A stretch of 64,000 nt of DNA from Impatiens glandulifera. Its lineage: Eukaryota > Streptophyta > Magnoliopsida > Ericales > Balsaminaceae. Shown piece after piece: positions 6,090 to 43,877 of the stretch (position 1 is its first letter; each line of letters starts with the position of its first letter). The stretch is taken from the NCBI RefSeq assembly GCF_907164915.1, contig NC_061862.1:119129877-119193876 (forward strand), written 5' to 3'. The translations under genes and the position numbers were made by a program. The notes under the pieces are model-generated. The model saw only the letters and a program-made list of their open reading frames with translations. It did no database searches and had not been told where the DNA came from.

Positions 6090-6313
6090 ATTTCTTCCTT
6101 TTTGATTATTTAGAATAAATATTCAAAACTTCTAATTATTGGCCGGTTTAAAAGAACTTAACTTTATTTGGTCATTTTAAAATTAACTTAATTTTTCTAA
6201 CAATTTCTCCCTTTTTGATTATTTAGAATAAATATTCAAAACTTGTAATTGTTGGCCGATTTGAAAGAACTTGACTTTATTTGCCCATTTTTCTGGAGAA
6301 TTGTTTTTGAAAA
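6090..6313 (-). repeat. Duplicated polypurine-tract/LTR-start module
   Basis: Two copies of a roughly 113 bp module. On the minus strand each reads a run such as AAAAAGGGAGAAAT followed by TGTTAGAAAAATTAAG, with putative LTR starts at 6089 and 6202. The polypurine tract primes plus-strand DNA synthesis in LTR elements. The duplication recurs in related elements at 21.9-22.1, 31.67-31.77 and 60.8-61.0 kb. At 6314 the sequence changes to plus-strand copia pol, so this is also a junction between two elements. Confidence 0.6.
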
Positions 6314-7703
6314 TGGGTCTTTAGGAACAAGCTTAGTGAAGACGGTTTAGTCATTAGAAACAAAGCTCGTTCAGTTGCTCAAGGATATAGACAAAAGGAA
6401 GGTATTGATTTTGATGAGTCTTTTGCACCGGTTGTAAGACTAGAGGAAATTAGAATCTTCCTAACATATGCATCTTTTAAGAAGTTTAAAGTCTTTCAAA
6501 TGGATGTGAAAAGTGCATTTTTAAATGGGAAATTAAGTGAATAAGTATATGTAGAGCAACCCCCTGGTTTTGTAGATCATGTTTTGTCAAATCATGTTTA
6601 TAGGCTTGACAAAGCGTTATATGGTCTGAAACAAGCTCCTAGAGCTTGGTATGACACTCTAACCAATTTCTTGTTTGATCATGACTTTGTTGTTGGAACA
6701 GTGGATAAAACCCTATTTAGATTTACTAAAGATTCTCACATCCTACTTGTTCAGATATATGTTAATGACATTATTTTTGGTTCAACTAACCCCAAATTGT
6801 GTGAGAAATTTGCTAAGCTGATGTAGGATAGGTTTGAAATGAGCATGACGGGAGAACTTACATTCTTCCTTGGACTTCAAGTCCGTCAGTTAGAAAACAG
6901 AACTCTTATCAACCAGGCCAAATACACCAAAGAACTGCTAAAGAAGTATGGTTTGAAGAATTGTTCTGCAGCAGCTACTCCAATGAGCTCTTCGATTAAA
7001 TTGGATAAAGATGAAGGTGGCCGAAGTGTCGATGTAACAACATATAGAGGACTCATCGGTTCTTTGTTGTATGTAACTGCTAGCAGACCAGACATTCAAT
7101 TTGCTTTTGGTGTGTGTGGCAGATTTCAGGCTGATCCTATACTCTCTCATTTTACTACTGCTAAACGTATTCTTAAATACTTATAGGGAACTCAAAATTT
7201 GGGACTGTGGTATCCGATGGATTTCAGTTTCAATTTAATTAGTTTCTCAGATGCAGATTATGTAGGATGCAAAATTGATAGAAAAAGCACAAGTGGAACT
7301 TGCCAGTTCCTTGGAGATCGTCTAATCACATGGTTCAATAAGAAGCAGACATCGGTCGCCACGTCCAAAGCTGAAATAGAGTATCTTGCAACTGGAAGTT
7401 GTTGTTCTCAAGTTTTGTGGATGCAACAACAACTTAGAGACTATGAGATTGAGGCTGATGAATCTCCAATTTTCTGCGACAACACAAGTGCTATTGCAAT
7501 CACTTACAATCCAGTTCTGCATTCTCGGACAAAGCATATTGAAATCAGGAAATCACTTCATCCGAGAACACGTATATCAAAAACAGATTCGTCTTGAACA
7601 TGTTCCTACAGATCAACAAACTATAGACATTTTCACGAAACCCCTACCGGAAGCAAAGTTTTCTCACTTTAGAAACATGTTAGGTCTTGTTGATCTTGAT
7701 TGA
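6314..7703 (+). pseudogene. Ty1/copia reverse transcriptase-RNase H, 3' part of pol
   Basis: C-terminal part of a copia polyprotein, about 460 codons. RT begins at 6314 (WVFRNK) and shows [16 protein letters not shown], the [12 protein letters not shown] block and LYGLKQAPRAWYDTL. The catalytic box reads YVNDI instead of YVDDI, removing one metal-binding Asp. GLQV, the RPDI region and the RNase H block with SDADYVGC, RKSTSGTC and ATSKAEIEY follow, ending HFRNMLGLVDLD. Breaks: TAA at 6542, TAG at 6824, TAG at 7184 and a frameshift near 7555. Capsid, protease and integrase are missing upstream, where the element abuts a minus-strand LTR fragment. The layout (pol, spacer, extra ORF, LTR) suggests a SIRE/Maximus-like element. 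Confidence 0.93.
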
Positions 7704-8360: not shown

Positions 8361-8365
8361 CTTGA

Positions 8366-8373
8366 TATTTATA
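8366..8373 (+). promoter_or_regulatory. TATA-like box upstream of ORF3a
   Basis: TATTTATA, 93 bp before the ORF3a ATG at 8466, followed by a leader rich in C and T (CAATCTCTCTCTCTTTAG near 8410). Comparable boxes precede four other ORF3 starts in the window. The promoter role is inferred from position and recurrence. Confidence 0.45.
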
Positions 8374-8465: not shown

Positions 8466-9224
8466 ATGTCGTCTTTCTGTCCAAAGTCGATTCAAGTGGA
8501 TTTTCAATCCGTATCCACTTTCCAATCTCTTAGAATTCATAGGATGTTTGAGTCTCTTAAAGCCTCCGGGCTTAGGAAGTTTTTTTCTCCTCATAAACTC
8601 TATCACGAACAGCTAGTCAACGAATTTTTCAAAACTGTTGGCTTCTATCAGGATAAAGTTATTGCTGGGGCCGTAATAGGCCAGATGATCTGCATCACTG
8701 AAGAGTCCTTTGGTACGTTTTTCCAACTTCCAAAAGTAGGTATCGATGAGTTCTCAACCACTCCTCCTGGTATAATGTATACGATGATGAAAATCTTTTT
8801 CGATTCCCCTCAAGTAGACATTCATGGAAAGAAAAAACTTCTGAAGGTTGAATATGCTCTTTTAAGCGACATCGTATCGAAATCCCTTCTTTTTAAGGAG
8901 TCTTCCTACAAATATTGTACGAAGGTCTTTCAGATAATGGTGGTTATCACCAGGGGTGTTCTTGTCATCTGGACAAGCTTCCTCTTCGGAAATCCTGTTA
9001 GAATGGTTGTTGCTCGGAAGAAGATTTTTGGCTTTGATGGTCCTCTTAGCTCTCTTCTTTGTTTCCTTCTGAATGAACCCGGTAAGAGTTTTCCCCTTCC
9101 TTCTAAAATTTTGAATTTCTAGAAGGTTGTCGATTATGTTCAAAGGGTGGAGACGCTTAAGTCCAAGAAAAGGAAAAGAGAAGACGCCAACTCCCCTCTA
9201 ACTGCAGTCTTAGAGATATCTTAG
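8466..9224 (+). pseudogene. ORF3a: extra gene of a copia element, plant transposon-type domain
   Basis: About 253 codons starting MSSFCPKSIQVDFQSV and broken only by one TAG at 9120-9122. Readable features: an N-terminal VDFxSV motif, SLKASGLRKFF near residue 34-44, NEFFKT near 55, a long hydrophobic middle, and GFDGPLSSLL near 190 that aligns with GYAPxLS in the other ORF3a copies. The tail past the stop is basic (KSKKRKRE), a possible nuclear signal. It resembles the uncharacterised 'putative plant transposon protein' domain family. The function is unknown and no enzyme motif is visible. It lies between copia pol and the 3' LTR, where SIRE-type elements carry an env-like ORF, but I see no signal peptide or clear envelope features. 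Relatives: 12149-12883 (minus) and 18401-18748. Confidence 0.7.
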
Positions 9225-9501
9225 GTTGAAGTCTATCCTCTCCAGAAGTAAAGTCTAGGAAGAAGAAGAAGAATAGAATTTAAATGTCTTTTTGAAAGTT
9301 CTTTTGAATATTTTTATGATGTTTTTGGGGTAAACTTATTTTGGGTAAATTGAACAATGTTTTGTGTGTTTCTTCTGAAAACACTCATATGTGATTGATT
9401 TGGATATTTTTTAATGTTTTACTTGCATGCAAACAGCTTTGTTTATTTATATGATGAATGCATGGTTTAGTATATGTATGCAGGTTTCCATTTTCTTCAT
9501 C

Positions 9502-9515
9502 AAAAAGGGGGGAAT
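9502..9515 (+). promoter_or_regulatory. Polypurine tract of the 3' LTR
   Basis: AAAAAGGGGGGAAT directly precedes the LTR that starts at 9516. Its position and composition are those of the plus-strand primer of an LTR element. The 9225-9501 stretch before it is T-rich 3' flank with no gene. Confidence 0.75.
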
Positions 9516-11456
9516 TATTGGGTCAAATTATTTTGACTAAGTGTTGAAATAATTTAACCACTGAGATTTTGATGATGAAATGACTTATGAGTTTTTATGA
9601 AGGTGTATTGAAACAATATTTCATAAAACTTAGCTCTAATGAGGGTCATTATACCGATTTTGGCATTCAATGCATAGAATTAGACGTACAGTCTAACTCA
9701 TCGGAGTTAGACGTGTAGTCTAATGAATGCATAGAACTAGACATACAGTCTAACTCATCGTAATTAGACGTGTAGTCTAATAGACGTGTAATTAGACGGA
9801 TGGTCTAATAGACACACGGAATTAGACGTAAGTTTAATGCATAGAATTAGACGTACAGTCTAACTCATCGGAGTTAGACGTGTAGTCTAATGAATGCATA
9901 GAATTAGACGTACAGTCTAACTCATCGGAGTTAGACGTGTAGTCTAATGAATGTAAAGAATTAGACGTAAGTCTAATGAATACACGGAATTAGAGGTAAG
10001 TCTAATGTGTTCGAAATTAGACGTACCGTCTAACTCACCGGAGTTAGACGTGTAGTCTAATAGACTTGTAATTAGACGGATGGTCTAATAGATATTCGGA
10101 ATTAGACGTACAGTCTAACTCACTAGAGTTAGACGCGTAGTCTAATATATTTACAATTAGACGGATAGTATAATTTGTTCGGAATTAGACGTGTAGTCTA
10201 ATTAATGAAATTTAGACGTGCGTCTAACTTCTTCAGACAAGTATGAGGTAGAACCGGAATTAGACGTGTAGTCTAACTCTGTGGAGTTAGACATACCGTC
10301 TAATAGTTATTGGATAATTAGACATGTAGTCTAATTAGTGAAAGTTAGACGTGCGTCTAACTCCTTCAGACAAGTCTGAGGTAGAACCGGAATTAGACGT
10401 GTAGTCTAACTTAGTGGAGTTAGACGTACCGTCTAATGGTTATTTTAATTAGACGTAAGTCTAATTCTATTAGACCAGGCGGTCTAATAGACGTTATTAT
10501 TAAAAGGAAATGTGTGATTTCATTAGACTGATTTTACAATCTGTCTAACTGAAATACGTCTAATGCTCAGCTTAAGCAGTTGCTTGAAGCTAGCATTTCA
10601 CCTACCCACGTGCTATAGTTGTACCCTACTCCTGCTCCACTTTCAAATGAAGATTAGTACAATAACTATATGCAACCAACCAAGGAATGCCACTTAAGAG
10701 AATTTTACTCACATTACTTATTTTGCAGGTACATCCCTGATGGAATATTCGGCGCACTACCAGTGATGTACGGCCACGACCCTTGTGCTCAGAACCTGCT
10801 GTGTACAATGGAGGCTTTCCAATGGAAGAGTGCCACGTATCATTCTAAAAGATTCGACTGTTAACTCCTGCTCAGTATTTAACAAATCTATAGGATAACG
10901 GACAATCTGCCTCAACCAGAACAATCTGCCTTACGAATTTTCCTCAAGCAATCTGATTTTGTAGAGAGAGAAACTACTCAATCATCTTGCTTACTGAACT
11001 CATATTGTGAAGCTACTTTCTGATTGTATTTGTTGTGAATCAAGAGATGGCTAGAATCAAATTACCTTTAGCTAAGTGATATATATTCTTCATCTTGTAA
11101 TTGAACAGAAAGTGTTATGTTCAATAGTGAGCTAAGTGTGTTTAAACTATATTTGATTCGAATCATATTATAGTGAATCCTTCCGGTGGTTAGAAGAAGG
11201 GGTGACTTAGGAGAGTTTCTCCGAACATCCATAAATAAACTGTTGTGTTCTTTCATTTCTGTCATCTTTTCATATTTCATCTTATGCTTCAAACCCAAGT
11301 AAACAATTTCGCTTTGAATCTGTTTCAAGTGTTTACTAGTGTTTGCGTAGAATAGAAAGCGAATTAAATTCCTAACATGATTTCTTTCAAACCATTTTTC
11401 ATAAGCCTTCATCCTTAGTCAGACCCCCGTCTCTATCGATAAAGCCAATCCTATCA
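9516..11456 (+). mobile_element. 3' LTR (1.94 kb) of the copia element at 6.3-9.5 kb
   Basis: It begins TATTGGGTCAAAT (TGTTGGGTCAAAT in its sister at 44723) and ends CCTATCA at 11456. A second copy, 44723-46743, defines both ends. The U3 side is dominated by the TTAGAC hairpin array. A TATA-like TATTTAA at 10876-10882 and an end segment reading CCCGTCTCTATCGATAAAG follow. Short open frames inside (10626-11412) are accidental. The 5' LTR and gag are missing, so no target duplication can be read. On its right it abuts a minus-strand ORF3b start, as if inserted there. Confidence 0.85.
9655..10560. repeat. TTAGAC/GTCTAA hairpin array in U3
   Basis: Dozens of short inverted repeats of the form TTAGAC-N(2-6)-GTCTAA, for example 9680-9696 (loop GTACA) and 9707-9723 (loop GTGTA). 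Between them lies a second inverted repeat, TAACTC-ATCG-GAGTTA, which overlaps the first so that stems can be exchanged. A third type, CAGAC-AA-GTCTG, recurs near 10367. Spacer words vary while the stems are largely kept. Confidence 0.9.
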
Positions 11457-11686
11457 CAGTGAGCCGGTAGAAATCGCAGTCGATGTAGGTGGTGATGCTA
11501 CCATCACTTCTTACCTCTACTTTGTTGAAGAACTCAAGTTACCTCCGCCTCGAGGATGGAGTCCGAGCCTTCAAGAAACGTTTGCAAGCCGGATTCGACT
11601 AATGGTCGAATAAGAACATCTTTGAATCTTGAATTGAAAACAGATTCAAAATCGATGATGATTGAGTTTCGGAGTTGGACATTCAT
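11457..11686 (-). pseudogene. ORF3b N-terminal fragment, cut by an LTR
   Basis: On the minus strand an ATG at 11684-11686 opens a frame with IIIDFESVF, VESGLQTFLEGS and, after a one-base frameshift near 11540, EFFNKVEV. These are the same landmarks (VDFxSV, SGLxxFL, NEFF) as in the other ORF3 copies, so it is the first 75 or so codons of the same family. It stops where the 9516-11456 LTR begins. It lies downstream of an ORF3a copy on the same strand (12149-12883), as in the 18.4-21.8 kb locus. Calling it ORF3b rests on that gene order, since the diagnostic C-terminal half is missing. Confidence 0.6.
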
Positions 11687-11776
11687 CTTGAGGAGGTTCG
11701 TGGGACACAAAGGGTTTAGGCTTTTAGAGAGAAGGAAGCAAAGAGTTTGTGATTTTATTTTGTGAAGAGAAGGGTT

Positions 11777-11785
11777 CTTTATATA
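11777..11785 (-). promoter_or_regulatory. TATA-like box upstream of the minus-strand ORF3b
   Basis: TATATAAAG on the minus strand, 91 bp before the ATG at 11686, followed by a CT-rich leader (CTTCCTTCTCTCT). Its promoter role is inferred from recurrence at the other ORF3 genes. Confidence 0.5.
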
Positions 11786-12148
11786 GGGAAATGGTTACTT
11801 GTCATTTAATCAGATTCATTAAATGAAAATATTTTTGACCGTTATGTCATATCTTAGCATTGAATGCTTATTCTGAATATTTTGTACCTTTTCAAGAAAA
11901 TATCTTGATAATGTATGATGTAGAGTAGGCACGACCTTTAAGAGCGCCCCTTCCCATGGTTTTAATTTGACTTGGATTATTTCGGTTTGAGAGAAGCGGT
12001 AGCTTCTCCTTGAGATGATGTCGGTTTTTACAAAATTAATTTTAAGACATCTTTTGAACTACACCGGAAAGTAGACTGGTTTTATTAAGTAGGATCTCTA
12101 ACTGATATTACAGCAAAATTATCGGCTAAAAACAGAAAGAGCCTAAAT

Positions 12149-12883
12149 CTAATAGTGAGATGGACCAATTGTCGGAGCATTCTTGGCCTTGGCTTTGTTC
12201 CATCGGTCAATTTGCTTTTGGACTCTTTCCTTTGTCAGTAGTTGGTTTGGGTGAAGAGTGATACCAGAGCCGTGATAGTTTTAGAACTCATTGAATATGC
12301 CGCTTAGTTGTGGAGCATAGCCGGGTTTTTTGGAGGTGATCAACTCCTTCAAGTTGTCAAAGATGATTCGGGACAAGTTTACCCGAGTTCCTTCGGTGAT
12401 GGCAATCATCATCTCGAAGATACGTTTGGTGTATGATTGAAATTTTTCCCTGGCTAGGATGGACTAACTCAGAATTTCACTAAGAATCTGGTATTCATTA
12501 GCAAGAAGTCTCTTAGGTTCCCAAGTATTAATCGGGACCATAGAGCCAGAGAAATGTTAGCGCGTCTCATCGATGTACACCGGGGAGTAGGTAAGATAGG
12601 TAACACCTTGAGTAGGTAGTTCACAAAAAGTTGCGAAGTCCGTTATACTGAAAAGGAAAGATTTTCCATGAACTTGGGCGAAGATGATATCTCGGTGTTT
12701 CACCCTTGCAGTTTCGAAGAGCTCATTAACTTCGGTGAAGTCAATGGAATAGCGGTTTTCCAAGAATTTCCTAAGACCGGAGCTCTCGAGAGCTCGAAAG
12801 ATGCATTGGACTTCATTATCCTCGGAATGAGCAACCAATTCAAAATCGGCTAGAAGAACTTTCTTAGAGAGAGAGCATGACAT
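12149..12883 (-). pseudogene. ORF3a, minus strand, single frame with three stops
   Basis: 245 codons in one frame from ATG at 12881-12883 to TAG at 12149-12151, interrupted by three in-frame stops but no frameshift. Motifs: LLADFELV near residue 10, RALESSGLRKFLENRY near 30-45, NELFETARV, FCELPTQG near 86-93, then IIFDNLKELI, GYAPQLSGIF and a basic tail. These align with ORF3a at 8466 and 18401. Decay by stops alone suggests fairly recent inactivation. About 450 bp downstream on the same strand a second ORF of the family starts (11686), with its own TATA box between. Function is unknown; the plant transposon-type domain assignment is by resemblance only. Confidence 0.7.
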
Positions 12884-12954
12884 TTTTCTTAATAATTTTG
12901 CTTAGAGAAAGTTCTTGTGATGAATAGTGTTTTGAGATAGGATTAGATGTGCTG

Positions 12955-12962
12955 CTTAAATA
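12955..12962 (-). promoter_or_regulatory. TATA-like box upstream of the minus-strand ORF3a
   Basis: TATTTAAG on the minus strand, 72 bp before the ATG at 12883. It is identical to the box at 49846-49853 ahead of another ORF3. Confidence 0.5.
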
Positions 12963-15900
12963 GCCAGATGATGGTTAGCATATTTAGTGATGTCATCTTT
13001 GTAATTATGGTAGAGTTAACTTGTTTAAGTGTATAATGGTTATTTACAATGAGAAATTAAAGATGGAAAAAGATATCCATTATGGCTTAGAAAATATGGA
13101 AGGAATGTTAGTCTTTCTCTTTCATTGATAGACACGTGTATTCACTTTGATTGAGATTTAGATTGTTTTTATAGCATAGGGTAATTATCAAAGCGTGCAT
13201 GTAAACAACGGTCAGTTATCTCAAGTTTGCCGAAAATCCGCTTAACGAAATTATAGTGTGATTTATCGGTTGGTTTTCCATAACTGGTCTATTGAGATAG
13301 CCTATTCCATTTTGAATAAATATCGAGTTTAGGCGAATTTATTCAATTTTAAGGAGTAACCCATCTGTTTTATCCGAGTCATACATAGTTTTAGATGTCA
13401 TACTCGAATATGCATTTTGAAAACCAATTTGTTTTAATCAAACTTGATTCGAAAGGGAAACTCTATAAATACTAAAAATCTAAATACCCAATTTATAAAT
13501 ACTATTTAGTTTATTTTTGATAAATAAAATCAAAATAATTAAAATCAATACCAAAACCTAATTAAAATTAGATTAATTATTATTAGAATTAATAACTAAT
13601 TAGTTAAGGATACTAGCCAAAGAAATTAAATAAATTAATTTGGGATAAATGTTTTACTCATTTAATCTCGAATTATTTTAGAAAAATTAATGGGAATTAA
13701 AATAAATAATTAAGTTAAATGTTGTATCCATTTCATTCCAAATAAATTATTTATTACACCCAAAAATATATAAAAGAAAATAAATTTGCAAAATATATGT
13801 CATATTTATTTTAAATATTTTGTAAATTTTTAAGATTTAAAACAAGCCAAAAGGGTGAAAAAATCAATTTCAAACAAACCCTTAAGATTAAATAAAAATA
13901 TATATATGTGATCAAGTGAAGCCGAAATGCAAAAGAATCGCTGCAACCATCAAATAGGAGTTTGATATCATCCAACATCTAGGAATTGTCCGTATAGCTT
14001 CCAATCATCCTATACATCGAATTACCAGTTTGAATTGGTATAATTACATTTTAGTTTTGATAGTTTTGTATATTGTCTGGTTATTCAAGTTTTTGATTGA
14101 GAAATTATATTATGATCATTTGTGAGCCTTTTGTTGAGGCCAACCACAATCAATTGATATAATCAGAAAAATCCAAATTTCTATTTGAAAATTCCAATAT
14201 CGAGTTTTTTGTTCTTGAGTTATTTCTCAATAACAACAACCTAGAAAGCTTCCCAACATGTTTCTAATGATGTTAGGAACCTATTTGGATTATGTTTTAT
14301 CCATCCCGATCATGTTTGATAAAAACTAAAAATTTTAATAAAAATTCAGATCTTGAATTAGCCAAAACGAACAACTAGTGTCCATGTACTCTTATAAATC
14401 AATTATATTAAGTATAAGAAAGTTATTGACAAACTCCTTACACATCATTAAAGCCCTAAAACTAAAAACAATAATTTTGTTCTCAAAACTCTTTTGATTA
14501 AATTGAATATCATACATGTTGAATAACACATAGGGATGATGTTCATAATGATCTTAGGAGCTTTGTGAATCTTCTGAGGCCCCTGGATCAAAGGATTTAA
14601 ACCTTAATCAAAATTGCAAAACTTACAGTTTATGTGTTCTTTAGTACTAGGAAAACATAGCCCAAGTGTACCCAAGACCAAGGGATACTAGTCCTTACAA
14701 GAGAAGAATTTTAGCTGAAGCTTACCCAGTATCGAATTTTCTTCATACTTAGGACCGACAAAACCTAGAACAAGGCTAATCAAGATCTATGAATTTCACA
14801 CCCGTCTGTGAATTTCCAACCTAGGACCGAGGAATCTCACATATTTGATAGAGAATTCTCAAACCTTTGACCAAAGAACTTAGTCCCAAACTAAAAAAAG
14901 ACTGGTGATTTTCACAAACAACTTTGGGACATCAACACCATGACCAAGGATCTCCAAATCCCAACCGAGGGAATTCTGACTCAAGACTGAGGGCCTTAGA
15001 ACCCGACCAATAAAATCTAACCTAGGTTTGAGGACAATAGAACTAGTGTCTGTTTGGTTTCATTTTTATATTCCAAAATCATTTTTGTAATTTTGGGATT
15101 CTAAATCATTTTTTAAAAATCCAAAAAAAATAGAAAATAGTTTTAAAATATTTGTTTAATATTTCCATAAAAATAATTTTGATAAGGGTTTGTTTGAGAT
15201 TTATTTTCATATTTAAAGCCTTTAAAAACTGATATTCTTCAGGAATATTCCTCCCTAGTCATCATCGTCAATAATAGGAACCAACATTTAAATATTGTTG
15301 TTACAATTTTAAATATGCAAAAACATGTGCATGTCTAGGACCAGAAAAATAATTGTTAAAATAAAACGTTATACAATCAATTTTCAAAAACCAAAATTTT
15401 ATGAACTAGAGACCATTTTTAAAACGGGTACGGAGAATGAAGCGTCAAAGCCCTTTCTCGAGTATCACCAAATTACGAACTAAAATAAAACACTACTTAA
15501 AATTAAGTTTGTATACGTATGCCTTTTTATTTATTTTAAACTGAAAATCAATTGGCGATTCTTTATCAAATAAATAATATTTTAAATTAGTTATTTTTAA
15601 TTAATTTAAATAAAAGATTTATTTAATCAAGTTGTTATTTGATTATTTCAAATTTAAAAGATTATTTCAAATTTGATTAAAAACTATTTGTTTTTATTTT
15701 AATGTTATGTTTGTGTTTTATTTTTGCAAAATTTCTTTTATTGTTTTTGCTATTGGCATGTTTGTGTTTTGAATATATGCATTTTTTTTTATATTTATGT
15801 GTTTTTAATTTTCATTTTTAAGAATTGTCAAATGGGGAGAACTTACCATTTGTGATTTTAGAAAAGAACTATGAGAGTTGGAGAAAGGGGATTTCAGTTC

Positions 15901-16165: not shown

Positions 16166-18400
16166 TCATAACTGTAATAATAATATTATTTTTTACATTC
16201 GTATTTGTAAATTGAATAAACTCTCATTTTTTCACTGGTCATTTTTATTCATTTTTTATTATTAATTTTGTATTTTCTTATACGCATGTTGAAATGTAAA
16301 ATTAAGAATGATCAATCATTTTTATGTTCCTTTCTTATGGAACTTTCGGGTTTCCTACCATGATATTACTCGAGTATAGAAAACATCTCTTTTTTTAAAA
16401 AGAGTTCATGATCTTTCTATACACATTTGTCTTGTTTGGGTCTAGTTAAAATCTCGTGACTAAAATCGTCATCAAAGATTGAAATACTAGACCTCAGCGT
16501 TGACGATCAATGAATTTTGCATGTTATTTTATAAAATCATTTTTGATATTTACTCATACTCAAGTTGCTTTGAATATTATTGTCTATCATTGTTTTCATT
16601 TTCTCTTGGTTTTGGACTGAGTTAGAATTTTCTGTATGCTTGTTTATCTAAAATACATTTCTCCAATGTTGTATGATTAGCTATTCTAATAACCCCTATC
16701 GTTTGGTCAAAATCCAAGATTCTTCGAGAGAGAATTATGAAAAACACTTCAAGTCATGTGGGTTACATTGATGTATAAGACTTTGATGAATAAATTTGGT
16801 TATCATCTTTATGTTCCTCTTGGCCATGGTATGGGTGAAGGGTTTTATTTTCTTTGAGAACATGACTATTTTATCCTGATGTGAAAAGAAACTTAGCATA
16901 ATTGCATCCTTCGACGTGATGACACTTCGATGCCTAAATGTAAAGTGAAATAAATTATTAGTTAAGCGATAAAGTGAACTAAATCATAGGCTAAACGATG
17001 CACATGGATCCTCTCAAGATTGGAATCTCTCTTATATATTATCGCAAAGAACTTTGAGTATTAATAAGGGGGGAAATTGAAAGGACTTCACGAAGCGTTG
17101 TGAATCATATGACAAATGGTTCATATAGATCTTCTCAAGATTAAAATCTCACTATTAACTTGTCTTATGGGATTTCAAGAATCAATGAGAGTGAGAACAT
17201 AAAGGAGTTCACGAGACGTCTTGAATCTTATATGAAATGTTGCCCACCAACTCTCCTAAGATTGGAATCACATTTTTATCGTGTCGCGTAGGACTTCGAG
17301 AGTAAATAAAAAGGAGATAGAAGAAAAGATTTCGTGAAGTGTCGGGAATTTAATGTCAAGCAATGCCCATAAATCTTCTCAAGATTGGAATTTTTCTTCG
17401 GAACCGTCGTATGGGATTTTAAGAATCCATAAAGGTGAAAGACACTTGTGAAACGTTCAAACAAACATATATCACAACCCAAATTTGTGATCCTATTCAA
17501 GAAGGAAAATTTTCCTCATTGGTTTATTTTTTAATTATTTTTATTTATTAAATAACTCATGATGATGGCATAATAGTCAAATGAAAGTTCAAATTACAAG
17601 AACAAACACGCACCACTCATACCAGCCTTTACATGTTTTTCAAAGAAAAGAATTGAGAGTAACATCAAATGGAAAGTGCGTAGAAAATCAACAAATTTAT
17701 ATCTATGTATTATCGTCGTTTCCCCTCTAAATTCTATGTCATCGAGCTTCCAACTCTTTGAATGTTCAATACCATGATAAACATGGTCCTATCATTGTAA
17801 AGGGCTATACTCAGAGGGAAGGTATCTTTGAAATACAATGATAGAGTTATGATTGCCCCATTTGATTTTGTTTTGAAAAGTTTATTTTAAGTAAACATGT
17901 GAAATGGTTAACTCTTTTTTCTTTTCTTTTTCTTAAAGTCAAAATGAAATAAGGATGCCTTCTAATCTATAATGCGTACATGTATCTATATATATATATA
18001 CTTAACACATAAAAATCTTTTTACATGGTTCTACCGCTATATTGAAGAATCTTGGGATAGTATCGATGATGTTTTGTATATAACGTCCATGTGCAAGAGA
18101 GTGTTTTCTCACAAACATCTTAAGCAAAGCCTTTGATGTAGGTAAGCGGGCTTTAAATTGGGAATTTTGCCTTCACACCTTTTTTGTTACCTCCGAAAGA
18201 GAAACACACCAAAATGTGGAAAAAGGGGTTGATCTAGAGGTACCTAATTCAAACTCATGGAATATCACTCGTGTGATCTAGTCGAATAAATTCAACTAAA
18301 AATATACAAATAGATTCTTAGATGACATTGCACAAGATGGAACCATGCACATCATCAAACAGGCTTCAGTTTATGTACCATTTTATTTAGTTTTTGTGTA
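16166..18400. repeat. Non-coding repeat A (left copy)
   Basis: 2.2 kb without coding potential, repeated at 24877-26243 with the interval 16243-17108 missing in the second copy. Matching landmarks include AACTGTAATAATAAT (16170 and 24882), the ATGATGGCATAATAGTC segment (17560 and 25410) and the end TTTTATTTAG (18381 and 26224). The two copies look very similar by eye, with scattered substitutions. They bracket 18401-24876. Confidence 0.85.
17000..17470. repeat. Four-unit tandem repeat of about 120 bp
   Basis: Diverged tandem units marked by CTCTCAAGATTGGAATC-like words near 17011, 17132, 17251 and 17375, each followed by a GGGATTTCAAGAAT-like phrase and a TTCACGA-like phrase. Three of the units are also present in the right copy of repeat A (24960-25330). 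No coding frame persists across units. Confidence 0.75.
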
Positions 18401-18748
18401 GTGGAGAACTACGGGCTGAAAACTCGCCTTACCCACCACATCCAACTCCTCCACGAGATTGTCAACCGATCCATCATTTGCCAATCTCCGAACCAACGCT
18501 ACTCTAAGAGAATGTTTGACATGATGACCTACATTGTTAGCAATACGCCTATCAATTGGTCAGCGGTTATTTTCAAAAATCTGAGGACTATGGTGGAGAT
18601 CAAGAAAGGTCTTGGTTACGCTCCTCACCTCAGCCGGCTCTTTTTTAAGTATCGTCCAGATTTTGGACCGGGTACACCGGCATCCCCTTCGAACATTCTT
18701 CATGTGGATGGGGTGGAGGACAAACTCTCCAAAGTAGTCATTACATAA
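18401..18748 (+). pseudogene. ORF3a C-terminal fragment
   Basis: 115 codons with no ATG; the frame is open from the junction with repeat A. INWSAVIFKNLRTMVE at about residues 51-66, GYAPHLSRLFFKY at about 76-88 and a PSNI motif near 102 match ORF3a at 12149-12883 and 8466-9224. The N-terminal half has been lost at the repeat A boundary. The frame ends naturally at 18746-18748. A second gene of the family (ORF3b) starts 426 bp downstream with a TATA box between. This reproduces the order seen on the minus strand at 11.4-12.9 kb. Confidence 0.7.
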
Positions 18749-19054
18749 GTTGTATCTTTATCCCTTATGTATTTCTATTTCCAAACCGATCCATGTATCA
18801 GTTTCTATCTTGTCATTTTTCTTTAATGAATATCCAATGTTTAAGCTTAATAACCGGGTCAAAAACCGCAAAACTAAAATCTCCATCCATTAAATAACCG
18901 ATTAACATCGATAAATTACTTCGTTTGGATTCCCGCCTTCGGTTTGCCGCCCATGGCTTCCCGCCCATAGTTTCCCACTCAATGGTCTTGGAGGGAAAAT
19001 TCCCGCCTAAAAGTGATGGGACGGTTCGCGACGGTTGGAATTCCAAACCGCAAC

Positions 19055-19062
19055 TATAAATA
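19055..19062 (+). promoter_or_regulatory. TATA box upstream of ORF3b
   Basis: TATAAATA, 113 bp before the ORF3b ATG at 19175, followed by a leader with CTTTCTCTCTCTAACTC near 19101. It is the best-formed of the five boxes. The remainder of the 426 bp between the two ORFs is non-coding, with GC-rich CCCGCC words at 18930-19010. Confidence 0.55.
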
Positions 19063-19174
19063 GGGTCCTTAGTCATTTTATTTCATTGTTACGCGAATCG
19101 GCTTTCTCTCTCTAACTCTCAGCTTCCTCAAACTTTCTCAAATTCTTATTCTCTTTCGGTTCGTTCATCCAAAA

Positions 19175-21761
19175 ATGGGTCGCGATTCTGCACTATTCAA
19201 ACATATCTTCCAGGTCGACTTTGAGGAAATCCGGACAAACGGTTCGCTCCGGTAAAGCAAGTCTTATCACGGATCTCCGAGTCCGGTCTCGAATATTTCC
19301 TTGGCGGCCCATTTATTCTATACCAGGAAGCGGTTAACGAATTCTTCCAAACCGCATCTCTCACCGGAAGAACAATAATTGCAACCATCAACGATCAGCA
19401 GCTCGAACTGACAGAAGAGTCGGTTGCTGATATACTACGTCTACCATCAGAAGGAAGCAACCTATCGGCGAACTTAGATCAAGAGACCTTCGAGGCGGCT
19501 TGCCAGGTTATCTCGGAAACCGCGGTTCCTATCGAGGTATCCGGGAAGAAATCATCACTGCGACCGGAATACAGACCGTTATGTGATATTTTCACTAAAT
19601 CGGTCCAAGCAAGAGGGGGAAACTATGACAGTCTCACCCGTGCGAAGATTGAGATGCTTGCCGGTTTAATCAACGTCATCCAAATAAACTGGGCCAAGGT
19701 TGTTTTCAACAACCTATGTGAAATGGTGGATCTGGATTCCACCCGGTCATGGGGATACGCCATCCCACTTGGGAAAATTATGCGTCATCTCAACATCAAC
19801 ACCGGTTCTGGCGTTCACCTCTCGTCTAGCAAAATAATAAAATCTAAGCAATTCAAGGAAAGGAAGAGCAATAGGAAGGCCTCCGGTTCTACGGGTGGCC
19901 GAAGGAAGAAGGCAGCCGGGAAGAAAGCAGCTCTGGTAAAAGAAAAATCCTGAAGCAAGAAAGTTAGACAACCAACCGGATCGGCTGATCCGCGGTCTGA
20001 AACCCCCAATGATGACGATTCGGCTACCAGTTCTGACCGAACCGCTTCACAGAATACCGAAGAAGATGAGTCCGGTAAAGGGAAAAGACCGATGGTCGAA
20101 GAACAATCGGTCAGTCTTGACAATGCTAATACCGGTGCAGACGGCCTTGGGGAAGAAGATGTCCACGCTAACGACAACACCCAGGAGATGGCCGAGAATC
20201 TCGTGAGCAGAATCATGGACGAAATCCATCAGCAAGCTCGCGAGGCGTCCGAAGTGTTTTGTCAATGGATCCGGCACCGGCATCATTTATTCTACAAAGA
20301 AATGCTACTGGGTCTAACCGCTGAACAGAAATTCGAAAAGTTGATAGAGATGGAGGAGGAAGTCATCAACCTCACAAAGGCTCAAGATGCCAAAACCGCC
20401 TTAGACCGACACGCAATAATAGAACCGCGTGCTCGGTTACAAAAGCTAGCCGAACAGATTCAACGCCTTACAGAAAGGTATAATCCGGGGACATCGAACG
20501 CTCAACTTCAACTATTGGTGATCGAACTGCTTACGGTCAAGGAAAGGGAATTGACCGAGGAAGTGGCGCGGCTTGAAGCGGTGCCCGAACATCAAGATAG
20601 AACGAACTCATCGCCTAATGAGGATGTTGGCGGTCAGAATCCGGGCAATAAAGAGCTGTCATCTCCTTCACCGGATCAGACAATCAACATAACCGAAGTC
20701 AGGACAGAGACACCTCTCACCGACAAGCAAGCATCTGCTCAAGCCGGGAACTCACAACCGAGGTTCAAGCAGTCAAGATAGCCGAGACAACAAAAGATGA
20801 TCTTGGTGAGGCGGTTAAGCGGATCACGTCAGTTTAAACAAACTACGGTAATACGGATGAACTGTACGGGAGTCATCTTGATCGAACCAACGCCTTGGAG
20901 GATATGACTCCAAAGCTGGCGAACGACCTCGTTTCGGTTAGCCAGAAGGTAGCCGATTTGGAACGGTCTTAAGAAAAGACCGATCAACAGTTGACAAAGG
21001 TCGGGGAGGACCAAGCTCGGTCAAGTGCTCAAGCCGGCTCAACACATGACAGGGTAATCAACCTTGAGGAAAAGAATGCAACCCTTGAGGAAAAGAACGC
21101 AAAGCTTGAAGCCGATCTCAAGGCGGTCACCGAACATGTGGTAGAGTTGATAAAAGCTAAGCTGGCTGCCGATAGGGCACTTGAGGAGGCGAATGCTCAG
21201 GCGGCTAAGAAGCTCCAGGATGACCTGGACAAGCAGACTCAGACGCAGAAGGAGGCAGCATGGACTGATGCGAACATAGCCAATCATATGCGAAACTAAG
21301 CGGCCAACGCACCAGAAATTGCAAAGACCATAGCGGCCAAACAAGCCGAAGATGCTAACCGGTTAAAGGCTCAACAAGAAACATACTAAAATTTCGAAAA
21401 GGCTCACAAGAAGTCCTTGGCGGTTCCTTCCTCTTCCGTTCCGGCCACACGTAAAAGGAAAGCGGCTTCGAAAAAGGCGCAAATGACCGGACTATTGGCC
21501 AGTGTCACCGAAACAGTTGTTGATCCTCCACCCAACCCGGCTTTGCAAACCGAGGATGATTTCGATGAAGATGTCCAGCCGCAACTCAGAAGACAGCGGG
21601 TTTTAAATGTGGTTCCAATCAGAACGATCGGTCAACCGTTCTCTCCTCAAACCGGCACCTCAGGCGGTCAAGGTCCCTCTTCAAGGCCGGTTCAAGAGAA
21701 CAAGGAACAATCAGACGATGAACTGCTGGATCAATTCCTACCGTCCAGATCGAAGAAATAG
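19175..21761 (+). pseudogene. ORF3b: long extra gene with plant transposon-type domain and coiled coil
   Basis: About 860 codons from MGRDSALFKHIFQVDF to SKK at 21758. The N-terminal 200 residues are the shared domain: ESGLEYFLGG, NEFFQTA, LTEESVADILRLP, INWAKVVFNNLCEMVD, WGYAIPLGKIM. A Lys/Arg-rich linker follows (near 19850-19945), then acidic low-complexity sequence, a long Glu/Lys/Leu coiled-coil stretch (about 20160-20580 and 20990-21290), a basic KRKAASKKAQ patch near 21455 and an acidic end. Breaks: frameshift near 19250, TGA at 19951, a frameshift between 20781 and 20990, and later TAA codons near 20836, 20970, 21297 and 21387. It lies just before an LTR. The charge pattern suggests a nuclear or nucleic-acid-binding protein; no enzyme motif is visible. 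Confidence 0.75.
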
Positions 21762-21847: not shown

Positions 21848-22111
21848 AAGTGATTTTTGGAAACCGGCCTACATTTCAATTATTGCATGATTTTGAATAT
21901 TTTAAATAAAATAATCAAAAAGGGAGAAATTGTTAAGATAAAAGATAAAATTGTTAAAAATTTTCTCAAAATTTTCCAAAATTTTTTGAAAAATCCCAAG
22001 TCAGTTTCAAAAAATCCGGCCAAATAAAATTCTCAAAAACAAAACCGGCCTACATTTGCAATCTTACATGATTTTGAATATTTTAAATAAAATAATCAAA
22101 AAAGGAGAAAT
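21848..22111 (+). repeat. Duplicated polypurine-tract/LTR-start module
   Basis: Two copies, about 181 bp apart, of a block reading ACCGGCCTACATTT ... AAATAATCAAAA, a purine tract (AGGGAGAAAT or AAAGGAGAAAT) and TGTTA. The upstream copy reaches a pseudo-start at 21931 (TGTTAAG); the downstream copy is followed by the true LTR start at 22112. The purine tract 22098-22111 is the likely plus-strand primer. Confidence 0.7.
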
Positions 22112-23297
22112 TGTTAGATAAAATTAGATCGGTTAAAGAAAACTTAACAGAAACAAATTCCTTGTGCAGGAACAGGCAAAGAATCGAACCGATCAAATTA
22201 CTCAAACGGTTAAGAAACTCAACCGGTCAAGCAATTAAACCAACCAGAAACATGACCGCACAAGAAAGTCAGGATCGGTCAAATCAGAAGGCCATAATCA
22301 ATTAAATAGTCGGTCATTTAGAAGCCATGAAAAAACCGGAAGTTATCCGGTTAACACAAACAACCGACCAGCATAAAAAGACACTTCGGGTATCTGTTGA
22401 GAATGATACCGAAGAAACAGAATGAACATTGCCATATTCATACAAGTTTGAGGAAAGTCTGCAGGCTGCAGAAGACCGTCCTACAAGATCTTTCCACTTC
22501 AGGATAAATCAGAAAGGCAATCTTCCAGGTACAGACAACTAACCAACCGACAGTTGACATATTGAGTAAAAGACAAACCTAGCCGATTTGACCTACATAC
22601 TGGAAGACTAGACCGCCAGGTCTGAATCACTTAACCTCTGCTCAACCAATCAGATTCAAGGAAATGAAATGTGACCGTTGGCACATTTGACCTATAAAAG
22701 AAGGAGTTGAAGAGGAATAAATGGGGTTGTTACAAGTTCTGAATTTTCAACATTGTGTTCTATCTCTAGAAAGTTTAAAACGCTTATTTGAAGTGTATTC
22801 AACAATTTCGGTTAAAATTGTACGAGTGTTATCGAGCAGGAAATAAGTCTCGATCGGATTGTGGTTGTATTCCTTAGTGAATATCCTTCTCGCGGTTTCG
22901 AGAGGAAGGGGTGACGTAGGAGTTTTATCTCCGAACATCCATAAAACCTGTCTTGTTATTTATTTTCCACCTACTTTACTTTATAACCGATCTGCACTAA
23001 CCTACTAATACCGCCCCAACCGATTCAACATCACCAAAACCGAATTACTAAGCTCCAAAACCGACCCAGCAATCTTCAAGCATGTCTTATTCAAATTCGG
23101 TCCTGCCTATCTCGTGTGTGTGTTGCTTCAACTAGAAACAAACCACTTCCGCGCTTGAACTTTGTTCAAGGGTTTGTGACAGTTTGTGTGGTATTGAAAC
23201 CCCGGTATTAATCTTTAACCGAATTAATCACCACCCTTTGAGTGAAAGACGATAACCGGCCAACCCCGGTCCGCCAGCCGTGACCTAAATCCTAACA
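22112..23297 (+). mobile_element. 3' LTR, TGTTAG family (1186 bp)
   Basis: It starts TGTTAGATAAAATTAGA and ends ATCCTAACA. Both ends are confirmed by the complete inverted copy at 37970-39225. A TATA box (TATAAAAG, 22693-22700) marks the promoter, and GGTGACGTAGGAG at 22910 is a phrase shared by the R/U5 regions of several LTR families here. It follows ORF3b and its polypurine tract, so it is the 3' LTR of that element; the 5' part of the element is missing. The right flank CTATC would be one half of a target duplication. Confidence 0.85.
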
Positions 23298-24884
23298 CTA
23301 TCACTCGTTTTGAGGACCTTCTAACGGGCAACCCGCTTCTAAGAGAATAAGCTGATCCAAACCTGAAAAGGGAAGGACCATAAATCTCTTTCTTCGCTTT
23401 TCATATTTTAAATCATATGTTGGAATATTTTCGTGAATCACTTTGATTTCTATCGCATTTGATGGGTGTTTACATTGCAATTAACTATCTAAAGAACTTA
23501 ACCAAACACACCGTTTGTGCAGGAAAAGCCATGATTAGTCATATTCTCAAATTGGTCGGTCAACCTATATCATAGAAGTGGCACAACTTGGAACTCCCTA
23601 ATTAATCTATCTTCTCAGGAACAGTCTTAGTAAAAGATTAGTTCGACTCAACTTTTGAAATCGGTGAAACCTCTCAGAGATCGGTTGTTACTATTCAGTA
23701 GTAAGACTTGTCAACCGATGTTCAAACAGCAAACCGATACGAAGTCCGGTCGGCTCAAATCATTGGCTCAATTCTAAGCGATCGTACAAAATTAATGGGA
23801 AGTGCAACAGATCAAATCAAAGATTTGAAACTGCTGAAAGTTTCCATTTTGATGGAATTGTTCACTTTGGGAATATACAGAAGGATATTTTCAAATATGC
23901 AGACTGTGTCATTTCCTCTTTGATACAAGTATGTTGATAAACTACATAAAGCAGAAGACTACAAAGTGGTCAGATACCTATTTTGGTATAAGTCCAAGAG
24001 TAGCCTCCAAGGAGCGGGAAACTGTCAAAACCGCACATCTGATAAACTCAATAGAAGACGAACTGGTCGGTTGTGTTACTCCTTGGGAAGTATCAACAGC
24101 ATTTCATGCCATGTAGCTCCTTTTGAACAACCAATCAGATTCAAGGATTACCATGCAGGTATCTGTTGAAAGAGAAATATGACCATTGTCATATATCCAC
24201 TATTTACGAAGAAACTAAAGAACAAAAGTAACAGTTACACAATTAAGAGATTACGAAGAGAAAAAAAGAATCAAAAAGAAGTTATCAAGTGAAACACTAT
24301 CTTTCATCTATTAACACAAACCTACTGTGCTTACATTACAATCTGTCCAAAAGTGTATTACAATTCTATTCATTCTTTGTAATAGTTGTATGTCAATAAC
24401 GAGCAGTAAATAAGCCTCGGTTATTTGAAGTATTGTAAGGTGTGATTGAATATTCTTAGTGAATATCCTTCTCAAGGTTTGAGAAGAAGGGTGACGTAAG
24501 AGCTTTATCTACAAAAATTCATAAATCTTGTGTTGTGTTGTTTCTATATTCCATTCATCCTTGTCATCCAATCTGTGTGTGTGTTACTTCATATTTAAAC
24601 AAACTACTTCCGCACTTGAACTTAGTTCAAGAGTTTGTGACAACCTGTGTAGTGTGGAGACCGATATTAATCTTTAACCGGATTAATATCAACCATTGTT
24701 TCTGTGTAAGCGTTCTCCTTTAGTCGGACCCCAGACCTCTATTGGCAATACCTATCCTATCATGGACCATATTCTCAAATGAGTGTGCTCCAAGTTTCCT
24801 CAATACAGCTAACCTGTATCACCTCAGATTCCTTAGAATCTTCTTATTCTCTTGCCATGAAGCAAGCAACCTCTTCATCATAAC
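23298..24884 (+). repeat. Chimeric segment duplicated at 53278-54868
   Basis: Homologous throughout to 53278-54868. It contains the last 25 or so codons and stop of an ORF3b, an LTR ending CCTATCA at 24762, and then about 120 bp of minus-strand copia gag. Because both copies share the same LTR-to-gag junction, they derive from one rearranged ancestor. Small open frames here (23708-24927) lie inside the LTR and are not genes. Confidence 0.8.
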
Positions 24885-26243
24885 TGTAATAATAATATCA
24901 TTTTTTACATTCGTATTTGTAAATTGAATAAACTCTCATTTTTTCACTGGTCATATGACAAATGGTTCATATAGATCTTCTCAAGATTAAAATCTCACTA
25001 TTCACTTGTCTTATGGGATTTCAAGAATCAATGAGTGTGAGAACAGAAAGGAGTTCACGAGACGTCGTGAATCTTATATGATATGTTGCCCACCAACTCT
25101 CCTAAGATTGGAATCACATTTTTATCGTGTCGCGTAGGACTTCCAGAGTAAATAAAAGGGAGATAGAAGAAAAGATTTCGTGAAGTGTCGGGAATTTAAT
25201 GTCAAGCAATGCCCATAAATCTTCTCAAGATTGGAATTTTTCTTCAGAATCGTCGTATGGGATTTTAAGAATCCTTAAAGGTGAAAGACACTTGTGAAAC
25301 GTTCAAACAAACCTATATCACAACGCAAATTTGTGATCCTATTCAAGAGGGAAAATTTTCCTCATTGGTTTATTTTTTAATTATTTTTATTTATTAAATA
25401 ACTCATGATGATGGCATAATAGTCAAATGAAAGTTCAAATTACAAGAACAAACACGCACCACTCATACCAGCCTTTACATGTTTTTCAAAGAAAAGAATT
25501 GAGAGTAACATCAAATGAAAAGTACGTAGAAAATCAACAAATTTATATCTATGTTTTATCGTTGTTTCCCCTCTAAATTCTATGTCATCGAGCTTCCAAC
25601 TCTTTGAATGTTCAATACCATGATAAACATGGTCCTATCATTGAAAAGGGCTATACTCAGAGGGAAGGTATCTTTGAAATACAATGATAGAATTATGATT
25701 GCCCCATTTGATTTTGTTTTGAAAAGTTTATTTTAAGTAAACATGTGAAATGATTAACTCTTTTTTCTTTTCTTTTTCTTAAAGTCAAAATGAAATAAGG
25801 ATGCCTTCTAATCTATAATGCGTACATGTATTTATATATATATACTTAACACATAAAAATCTTTTTACATGGTTCTACTGCTATATTGAAGAATCTTGGG
25901 ATAGTATCGATGATGTTTTGTATATAACGTCCATGTGTAAGAGAGTGTTTTCTCACAAACATCTTAAGCAAAGCCTTTCATGTAGGTAAGCAGGCTTTAA
26001 ATTGCGAATTTTGCCTTCCTACCTTTTTTGTTACCTCCGAAAGAGAAACACACCAAAATGTGAAGAAGGGGTTGATCTAGAGGTACCTAATTCAAACTAA
26101 TAGAATATCACTCGTGTGATCTAGTCGAACAAATTCAACTAAAAATATACAAATAGATTCTTAGATGACATTGCACAAGATGAAACCATGCACATCATCA
26201 AACAGGCTTCAGTTTATGTACCATTTTATTTAGTTTTGGTGTA
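24877..26243. repeat. Non-coding repeat A (right copy, internally deleted)
   Basis: Homologous to 16166-18400 but lacking the counterpart of 16243-17108 (about 866 bp). The deletion joins at a TCAT present at both breakpoints. The left edge fuses to the chimeric segment at a shared ATCAT. The right edge continues into sequence (AAAAAGTGTATTT) that is absent after the left copy, so the right copy probably retains the original flank. Confidence 0.8.
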
Positions 26244-42110: not shown

Positions 42111-43877
42111 ATGGGAAGAGATAATGCCTTGTTTAATCACATTGTTCAGGTGAACTTCGAATGCATCAATCATGGAGGATCGATCATGAATTTGATATTC
42201 TATGCGAAATGGTTACCCCTAAGTCCACCAGAAGTCTTGGCTATGCAATGCAGATCGACTGGATTTTGAATAATCTGAACGTTCTCACCGGCCCAAGTAC
42301 TCCTCTTCCTCATAGCAGAATTTTAACCTCAGCTAGCATAAGGAGATATTTTGTTAAGCAAGCAATGCTAAAGGATCCATGTCTGGAGGACCTAGCAAAC
42401 AAATGGCTAGCGTAGAAACCGATAATGGGTCTAAGATCCCCAAACTAGTCGATCGAATAGAATCCTTTCAAAGACTTCAGACTTCCGCCAAGTCTACCGC
42501 TAGCGTTGGTAGCCTGGTTCAGACAAAACAGAAGAAAACCAATGAGATCTCCTTAGGTCAAGAGAAACTTCAACTTGAGGTAAATATTCTAACACCGCCT
42601 CGTTTTAATGCCACAATATTTGTTCAGAAGGAAGCTTTGGTACTTCCTAAAACTTCGATTGAGCTTGCGGTACTTCCTAATACTTCGATTGAGCTTGCGG
42701 TTTTAAAGACTCAACCAGTAGCTGAAACCGATCAGATGGCTGAAACCAATTGGATAATTTTTTTTGATGAGACCGGTCAGATAGCTGAAACCGACCGGAC
42801 ATATATTATTGATAATGCTAATTAGATGGTTGAACCTGATCACGAAAACAATGACAAAACCGGTCGGTCAGCTTTACCAAAGACAGATCGGTCCACCATG
42901 CTAGAAACCGGTCGGTCAGCTTTACCAAAAATAGATCGGTCCACCATGCTAGAAACCGGTCAGCCAGATAAGGCTTCTACCGATTACAAAAATGCAAGCG
43001 AAGAGAATCAGGAAAAGATCCCAACCGATAACGTGGACATTCCGATTCTAAATGAGAAGGCGGTCAAAAAAGTTGTTCTAAACATTGAAGATGATGAAAT
43101 TCCGGCTCCTCACCAAGATGATGAAAAGACTGAGGAAATTGTTAAACTTATCCTCAAGGAGGTTGATGAGAAAACAAGTGAAACTATCGATCTCTTTTAA
43201 GTGTGGGTAAACGCAAGTCTTTCCTGTGGTTCCATAAAAAAAGAAATGGTCTACACTTCTATCCTTAGAACAAGTAATCTTTTCCTTGATAAACACCTCA
43301 TCGATGCCTGAAGCCTTGCTAAGAAGCAAACTTGTTGACGCAGATGCTAGAAGGAGGGTTTGCTACCAATCATTAAAAAATGGAAAGAAGATTTTAACCT
43401 AAAAGGGGCTACGACAAGAGTGGATAATAACGTACTTGTATTACTAAAGGCTGTTATGGAGTATTTTCTGGTAACTATCTCCAAATTTCAGGAAGTATAC
43501 AAGCCGGTTGAGGAAGGGCCTCCACCTCCTCAAGGTTGAAATATAGACCTGCACAAAACGATCTATTCAAGTCAGTTCTCACGGTGTATTACCTATTCAA
43601 TCTCGTGCTCTTGGCTCAACTTGATCTACCTCTGAAGAAATTCCAAGGGTGGACACTGAGCAAATGCTCCGAAACTTCCTAGCTCCATGGCAAACATCTA
43701 TTAAAGCCCAAATAACTTAATCAAATAGAGAGCGAACTTCCTCATCAAGGTATCACAATCAAGAATTGGCAAAGGTAAGGCAGGAACTAGGACAGAAAAC
43801 TCTCGTCATCACCAAAACACTCTCGGTCGTCAAAGTCGTATCATCACAACTCTATTAACTAGTTAAGTCTCAAAGTG
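42111..43877 (+). pseudogene. ORF3b, decayed
   Basis: It begins MGRDNALFNHIVQVNFE, nearly the same start as ORF3b at 19175, shifts frame near 42160, lacks most of the first half of the domain, and resumes as FDILCEMVTPKSTRSLGYAM at 42195-42250. An open stretch follows at 42379-43200 with one TAG at 42823: low-complexity, rich in Thr, Glu, Asp and Lys, with in-frame repeats (48-bp units at about 42859-42954; VLPxTSIELA twice at 42640-42700). Beyond 43200 the sequence is coding-like in other frames to about 43860. An LTR of another element then starts at 43878 without a polypurine tract, so that LTR probably inserted here. Confidence 0.65.

Follow-up and report, generated by a model that had tools for sequence, protein, structure and literature searches.

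Two pairs of related open reading frames (ORFs), one pair on each strand, lie in a 64,000-nucleotide stretch of Impatiens glandulifera DNA (the window), and raise the question of whether such tandem pairs form an evolved cassette of retroelements or were assembled by chance insertion. An earlier note on the window had argued for a cassette, with a short gene (ORF3a) followed, in the same order at both loci, by a second gene of its domain family (ORF3b on the plus strand). Window copies of the family were located by tblastn self-comparison and labelled A, B, B′, C, D, E and F (Table 1). Adjacent copies were indeed present on the minus strand (12883-12152 and 11686-11458, gap ~460 bp) and on the plus strand (18401-18745 and 19175 on, gap ~430 bp), but they did not repeat one another: the minus-strand pair was genes 1 and 2, and the plus-strand pair genes 2 and 3, of what, judged from the sequence, is a three-gene cassette of SIRE-type Ty1/copia elements, the window pairs being its remnants. 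A triplicated three-gene cassette between pol and the 3′ LTR, its genes separately promoted, would best explain the data as a whole, and we consider it probable.

Table 1. Features of the window (positions count from its first nucleotide).
Feature	Position	Strand	Remarks
Copia reverse transcriptase, then RNase H, of A element	6311..7700	+	
TATA-like box TATTTATA	8366..8373	+	100 bp before ORF A
ORF A, single accessory ORF	8466..9122	+	separate, abundant family
Polypurine tract of A element	9502..9514	+	
3′ LTR of A element	9516..11456	+	inserted into gene 2 (B′)
Gene 2 N-terminal part, copy B′	11458..11686	-	frameshifted; self-comparison match 11695-11507
TATA box CTATATAAA (candidate promoter)	11778..11786	-	100 bp before gene 2
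Gene 1, copy B	12152..12883	-	244 codons, three in-frame stops
TATA box CTATTTAAG (candidate promoter)	12955..12963	-	80 bp before gene 1
1.3-kb repeat	17105..18400	+	97% identical to 24951-26243
Gene 2 C-terminal half, copy C	18401..18745	+	second lineage
TATA box CTATAAATAG (candidate promoter)	19054..19063	+	121 bp before gene 3
Gene 3, copy D	19175..21758	+	domain 19175-19950, then long tail with coiled-coil-like parts
Two polypurine tracts (82-bp duplication)	21917..22111	+	ahead of D-element 3′ LTR
3′ LTR of D element	22112..24946	+	start TGTTAG; end inferred
Gene 3 copy F, C-terminal fragment	42191..42346	+	ahead of ORFs 42379-43200
gag, C-terminal part	48309..48932	+	apparently pol-less element
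ORF E	49964..50516	+	after gag, no pol between; self-comparison match from 50076

On the minus strand, copy B showed 75% identity over 1-244 to gene 1 of a locus elsewhere in the genome (L015). The fragment beyond it (11457-11686), which the earlier note had conceded might prove to be another ORF3a, did not turn out to be one: its two pieces matched gene 2 of locus L014 with identities of 86% and 92%. The gap ahead of it contained stops, and each gene had its own ATG. Copy B′ runs for ~76 codons before it is interrupted by the 3′ LTR of the A element, which bears the ORF at 8466, and since B′ ends where this LTR ends (11456), A belongs to a one-ORF element that disrupted gene 2 of the minus-strand element; the remainder of gene 2 was not seen within the 64-kb window, and no second TSD copy of the insertion was found. 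The 8466 ORF is a lone copy, as had been proposed, but not an ORF3a left on its own: it represents a separate family (at least 150 genome matches, open frames often 275 aa), with a polypurine tract (PPT) and 3′ LTR within ~400 bp after the ORF. The Ty1/copia nature of the A element was shown by its reverse transcriptase (RT), three pieces of which matched PF07727 (RVT_2; 4.5e-22, 2.8e-22 and 5.6e-7, the third slightly below the family cut-off), and relatives of this RT were found upstream of the three-gene cassette. The piece at 7187-7594, without Pfam match, we take to be RNase H from its place and sequence pattern. A solo LTR of the A-element LTR family, with the 5-bp TSD TCCAT, was present inside another element at 44723-46743.

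On the plus strand, copy C had 91-94% identity to the 233-aa gene 2 of loci L041 and L042. The ORFs at 12883 and 18401, taken in the earlier note for one and the same ORF3a, are thus gene 1 (B) and the C-terminal half of gene 2 (C); the reading of C as the same gene as B was dropped, as trees and lineage-2 loci put C in gene 2. The DNA of the B-B′ and C-D gaps did not align (z -0.2), which is to be expected of different gaps of the cassette. Copy C begins where the 17105-18400 repeat ends, and in the window copy this repeat occupies the place where gene 1, pol and the start of gene 2 would otherwise be. An LTR pair made up of 17105-18400 and 24951-26243 was considered and dropped, the ends not being TG..CA and coding sequence beginning at once; these direct repeats flank the broken C-D element and are perhaps filler DNA from break repair. 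Copy D was disrupted by a frameshift and stops, its self-comparison match starting at 19225.

Related loci in the 653.9-Mb host assembly showed the cassette again. With 11457-12962 as query, a DNA search returned 58 matches, 13 of which, besides the window, covered at least 1440 of the 1506 bases (counted by eye). Twenty loci of 9.9 kb were taken from the 58: 13 with a near-whole query, three covering 204-1506, one covering 1-564 and three covering ~523-1506. Gene 1 was followed by gene 2 on one strand in 20/20 loci, partly by choice of query; because DNA similarity to genes 1 and 2 guided their selection, only gene 3 is independent of locus choice. Gene 3 lay ~0.5-0.6 kb beyond gene 2 in 17/20 loci (with insertions in L023), and was absent from the stretch read in L025, L026 and L028. 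RT and RNase H were found ~0.9 kb upstream on the same strand in 7/7 loci (L002-L008), and none upstream of the window copy (L001), making 7/8 among copies with enough flank; the RNase H end was also visible in L018, L026 and L028. A PPT and LTR start (TGTTA) lay 3′ of gene 3 in 14/20 loci. Gene 1 comprised 244 codons and gene 2 ~223-250, and gene 3 was long, with a coiled-coil-like tail. Most copies were broken by stops or frameshifts, the still-open single genes being gene 1 in L015, gene 2 in L019 and 381 codons of gene 3 in L011. In L019, next to the first element and inverted relative to it, lay another pair of genes 2 and 3 (7833-9837, minus strand) that was more divergent.

A second lineage, to which copies C and D belong, was represented by at least 150 genome matches for each. 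When the best 50 of the 150 C matches were compared with the 150 listed D matches, 29 (window included; 29/50 being a lower bound) had a D match 480-722 bp downstream on the same strand. No D match lay upstream or on the opposite strand within 3 kb of the best 50 C matches; with 29/50 ordered pairs against ~0.02 expected, and no wrong arrangement, chance adjacency is implausible. Both second-lineage stretches analysed, L041 and L042, carried RT, RNase H, a gene 1 relative and an intact 233-codon gene 2. Between the lineages, the RT-RNase H segments were 76-83% identical, D was ~42% identical to gene 3, and genes 1 and 2 were ~32-40% identical where the matching gene was found.

Gene trees resolved the three genes as separate clades. 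The first tree, of 62/71 pieces (nine shorter than 115 aa were omitted), grouped gene 1 with B (100/99), gene 2 with C (95/89; gene 2 support 94/70) and gene 3 with D (99/94), and placed E as sister to gene 3 plus D (99/95); A was long-branched. Two later trees omitted four second fragments, and one of them also A and E. With lineage 2 and more A rows included, C again fell with gene 2 (100/97) and D with gene 3 (98/91); lineage-2 gene 1 paired with A (62/30; marked as a long-branch join), and these two together with lineage-1 gene 1 made up one side (62/64). With A and E left out, genes 1, 2 and 3 each united both lineages, at 99/93, 97/91 and 100/99, copy D being in the last of these clades. 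Given the 62/30 and 62/64 groupings, the orthology of gene 1 can be taken as firm only when A is omitted, and A may be distantly akin to gene 1. That three gene clades each unite both lineages argues that the triplication is most likely older than their split. Pairwise searches of the 20 loci with lineage-2 gene 1 had their best listed piece on gene 1 in 14 and on gene 2 or 3 in six; with lineage-2 gene 2 it fell on gene 2 in 15 and on gene 1 in five. The off-gene matches may be due to breakage of the true partner. The central claim of the earlier note, an evolved cassette of pol-bearing SIRE-type retroelements with duplicated and diverged genes, is borne out by these separate clades and by the succession of RT and paralogous ORFs in order in all seven of L002-L008 and in L041 and L042; what has to be given up is its two-gene form, three genes being present in 17/20 loci.

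Genes 1 and 2 had different nearest tree relatives in L009, L010, L022, L023, L024, L025 and L027, and one locus (G000:C3:45491183-45492703) was 92% identical to the window in gene 2 and 69% in gene 1. From these discordances, cassette genes seem to recombine between elements.

Each gene was preceded by a TATA-type sequence. A TATA-type 7-mer was present at -135..-45 in 19/22 copies of gene 1, 18/19 of gene 2 and 17/18 of gene 3, compared with 2, 1 and 4 copies, respectively, at -225..-135, 12, 0 and 1 at -300..-210, and base-shuffle means of 3.7, 3.3 and 2.3; the copies are related, so these counts are not independent, and the 22 gene 1 copies take in window A, which lies outside the TATA set and has TATTTATA. 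In 220-base upstream alignments, the 8-column TATA window topped the conservation list for genes 1-3 (0.93, 0.92 and 0.96; column means 0.63, 0.49 and 0.54), tying at 0.93 with AACCATTA in gene 1. The second lineage showed CTATATAAGGAACC at -86 of gene 2 (2/2) and TATATAA at -67 of gene 1 in L042, the gene 1 start of L041 not having been located. Among A relatives, in which the start motif was located in 9/12 loci, TATTTATA was present at 10/11 sites found. A TATA box whose spacing from the start codon is nearly constant for each gene has the form of a positioned, conserved core promoter element, and the boxes ahead of genes 1-3 are probably internal promoters, for which they are the candidates; they fit the box cTATA(A/T)A(T/A)Ag given for Sirevirus LTRs in the accessible text of PMC2829016. 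According to the same text, an internal promoter of the env-like gene, hypothesised in 2002, had not been conclusively identified by 2010. Nor is the proposal original: in a 2012 paper (PMC3414828, accessible part), which cites work with titles on SIRE1, envelope-class elements and Athila4/Calypso, internal promoters are already named as one way in which plant env-like genes are expressed.

Each gene is most likely a small transcription unit of its own, which RNA polymerase II would transcribe from its own internal promoter, giving rise to separate short mRNAs besides the LTR-driven genomic RNA. The strongest competitor, which we nonetheless think unlikely, has the same cassette expressed from genomic RNA by splicing or stop-codon readthrough, with the TATA boxes serving some other end; these are the modes published for the env-like genes of Bagy2/Athila and SIRE1, as far as the accessible text of PMC2829016 goes. 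Against it stand the separate ATG of each gene, the gap of several hundred bp, with stops as read in the window, and the position of the TATA box at the top of gap conservation, and readthrough from pol alone would leave genes 2 and 3 unexplained.

The proteins themselves gave few leads. Pfam assigned the family, weakly, to PF20167 (D 4.7e-4; 5/14 alignment members at E≤0.1), the best score, for gene 3 of L011, being 37.1 bits (E 3.8e-9), below the gathering cut-off of 45 bits; Pfam scans returned no matches for the proteins of gene 1 from L015 and gene 2 from L019. Homologous protein searches yielded none for D, two for A and one for a 14-row alignment, Impatiens glandulifera gene models only, and a search of solved structures found no relatives. 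Two AlphaFold models built from window-only alignments were poor (pLDDT 39 and 41). To our eye the N-terminal pattern of the family resembles the plant mobile domain (PF10536), which we presume to be a lead only; Pfam scans of cassette and window proteins gave no PF10536 match. This domain is given for 57% of Ogre elements in the accessible part of PMC6317226.

Were the ORFs to encode envelope-like membrane proteins for leaving the cell, their position after pol and the coiled-coil-like tail of gene 3 would be in keeping, Sirevirus env-like genes having been described, in the accessible part of PMC3414828, with transmembrane and coiled-coil domains; hydropathy peaks (over 19 residues) of 1.95 in window A and 1.81 in lineage-2 gene 1 could also pass for a membrane segment. 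However, peaks were only 0.84-1.39 in six proteins of genes 1-3, 0.45-0.63 in three D tail pieces (gene 3 tails being read piecewise) and 1.12-1.23 in three A relatives, and basic clusters occurred in gene 3, D and 2/3 A relatives, leaving an envelope role very improbable. On hydropathy, membrane proteins are unlikely; the basic clusters would fit nucleic acid or nuclear roles, and the products are perhaps better pictured as soluble and not as envelope proteins.

Genes 1-3 are each under purifying selection. Median pairwise dN/dS was 0.175 for gene 1 (207/210 pairs usable), 0.216 for gene 2 (190/208) and 0.202 for gene 3 (87/153), ratios being for usable pairs only and pairs with fewer than 100 shared codons being left out. 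No usable pair reached 1, and divergence at codon position 3 was 1.5- to 2.8-fold that at positions 1 and 2; the closest pairs, at 0.36-0.88, were as expected for dead copies of selected parents. For the ORF A family dN/dS was 0.341, and one pair in 65 reached or exceeded 1. That most single copies have stops or frameshifts might suggest functionless passengers, captured sequence in decay, a notion that the ratios of ~0.2 in every gene, the excess at position 3 and the values for the closest pairs render scarcely credible. Nor is there more than the slightest chance that nested insertion brought unrelated one-ORF3 elements together, for all that the window is heavily nested and the A element did enter gene 2: the three genes kept order and strand in 17/20 loci, 29/50 coordinate pairs were ordered with no wrong arrangement, and no A or D LTR match lay between genes in the 20 loci.

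What the cassette may do is hinted at by elements that appear to have lost pol. The window gag segment, without Pfam match, was named from CCHC-bearing relatives in L043 and L044, two loci selected for long open frames, in which gag was followed after ~1 kb by an E-family ORF with no RT or RNase H match between the two. The ORF E family, sister to gene 3, had at least 150 genome matches and open frames of up to 1006 aa. The best 50 of 150 gag matches were compared with the 150 listed E matches, and 15 (window included; 15/50 being a lower bound) had an E match downstream on the same strand within 20 kb, against one E match on the wrong side or strand; as all 15 spacings were 970-1367 bp, there is no room for pol. 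For ORF E, dN/dS was 0.186 (82/136 pairs usable) in a set in which 14/16 copies were chosen for lack of stops, and part of this purifying selection may predate pol loss. From their sequences, E-type elements seem to keep gag and one ORF3 without pol, and gag-plus-ORF3 elements are in effect a natural deletion experiment on the accessory protein's purpose.

The mechanism that we envisage for the three-gene cassette is as follows. One domain family, with PF20167 as its nearest Pfam entry, would have been triplicated in tandem before at least two element lineages parted from their common ancestor, and the three copies would have diverged into genes 1, 2 and 3, held in fixed order and separately promoted. 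That apparently pol-less elements retain gag and one such ORF under purifying selection points to a Gag-linked role, in which the products might cooperate with Gag on the RNA or particle of their own element, in nuclear routing, packaging or as a silencing shield. Work with Gag on RNA or particles is our best guess, a tentative one falling short of an even chance; that the products counter silencing comes next and is more doubtful. The fullest statement, a complex Ty1/copia lineage with a separately promoted three-gene regulatory or accessory module whose third-gene type acts in cis with Gag, is a possibility to which we would give about one part belief to two of doubt. If true, accessory proteins would be made before or without genomic RNA, and cis action with Gag would be so strong that elements that have lost pol keep gag and a third-type gene under selection, such elements having multiplied to many copies (at least 150 matches).

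The cassette elements resemble SIRE/Sirevirus elements with an env-like (eORF-3′F) gene in having a Copia RT and a sense ORF between pol and the 3′ LTR. PPT-like tracts were repeated (7724 and 9502; 21917 and 22098), with an octamer that is a variant of the Sirevirus AGGGGGAG; repeated PPT-like tracts, together with motifs recurring ahead of the ORF and within the first half of the LTR, may be further points in common with Sireviruses as described in the accessible text of PMC2829016. TAGACG/CGTCTA repeats, dense at 7890-8080 and 9669-10478, resemble the repeated motifs of Sireviruses, with densities in the A element of 29.9 per kb in the first LTR half, 11.8 in the pol-ORF linker and 2.1 in the second half; this palindromic-motif comparison was made on TAGACG/CGTCTA, the CGG-CCG core not being shown. 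Unlike Sireviruses, the cassette has three paralogous ORFs in tandem, each with a TATA box. In a survey of SIRE elements (Neumann 2019, PMC6317226), 74% of elements carried eORFs with a length of 250 codons or more, falling into 19 groups that bear little resemblance to one another; no tandem ORF set is described in its accessible part. With a threshold of 250 codons, gene 1 (at 244) and some copies of gene 2 would go unnoticed, suggesting that similar ORF sets could have been overlooked. Sunflower Athila carries PF20167 (Transposase_32) in an extra ORF after pol, the 3′ aORF (PMC11728184, accessible part), and is alike in having the same Pfam domain there, although matches here fell below the Pfam cut-off; unlike the cassette elements, it is a Ty3/gypsy element with one such ORF. 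In the literature covered, largely without subscription papers, we found neither tandem paralogous ORFs nor TATA boxes of this kind described.

Precedents for internal promotion differ in layout. Spumaviruses transcribe an accessory gene after pol from one internal promoter, compared with one candidate per gene in the cassette, and in maize the accessory gene of Grande, also after pol, is reportedly transcribed from its own internal promoter. The Grande gene is described, in the accessible text of PMC7264820, as one gene and antisense, so that Grande shares with the cassette an accessory gene after pol with an internal promoter (here a candidate) and differs in orientation and number. The expression and role of the Sirevirus env-like gene are long-standing questions, and a TATA box for each selected gene makes both directly testable; the cassette is also a case of gene triplication and divergence within a retrotransposon.

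Tandem duplication was also seen in the A family, with a 1076-bp period: at least two A genes per locus in L036 and L040, and three matches in a row at G000:C5 ~39775030-39777901, a possible snapshot of how tandem ORF sets originate. An Impatiens glandulifera gene model annotated 'aminoaldehyde dehydrogenase 2-like' (P0001) starts with an A-type ORF, and is either a chimeric annotation or a real fusion. To the left of the A-element reverse transcriptase, 3513-5762 was taken up by a degenerate array of tandem repeats, in which long open frames arise by chance.
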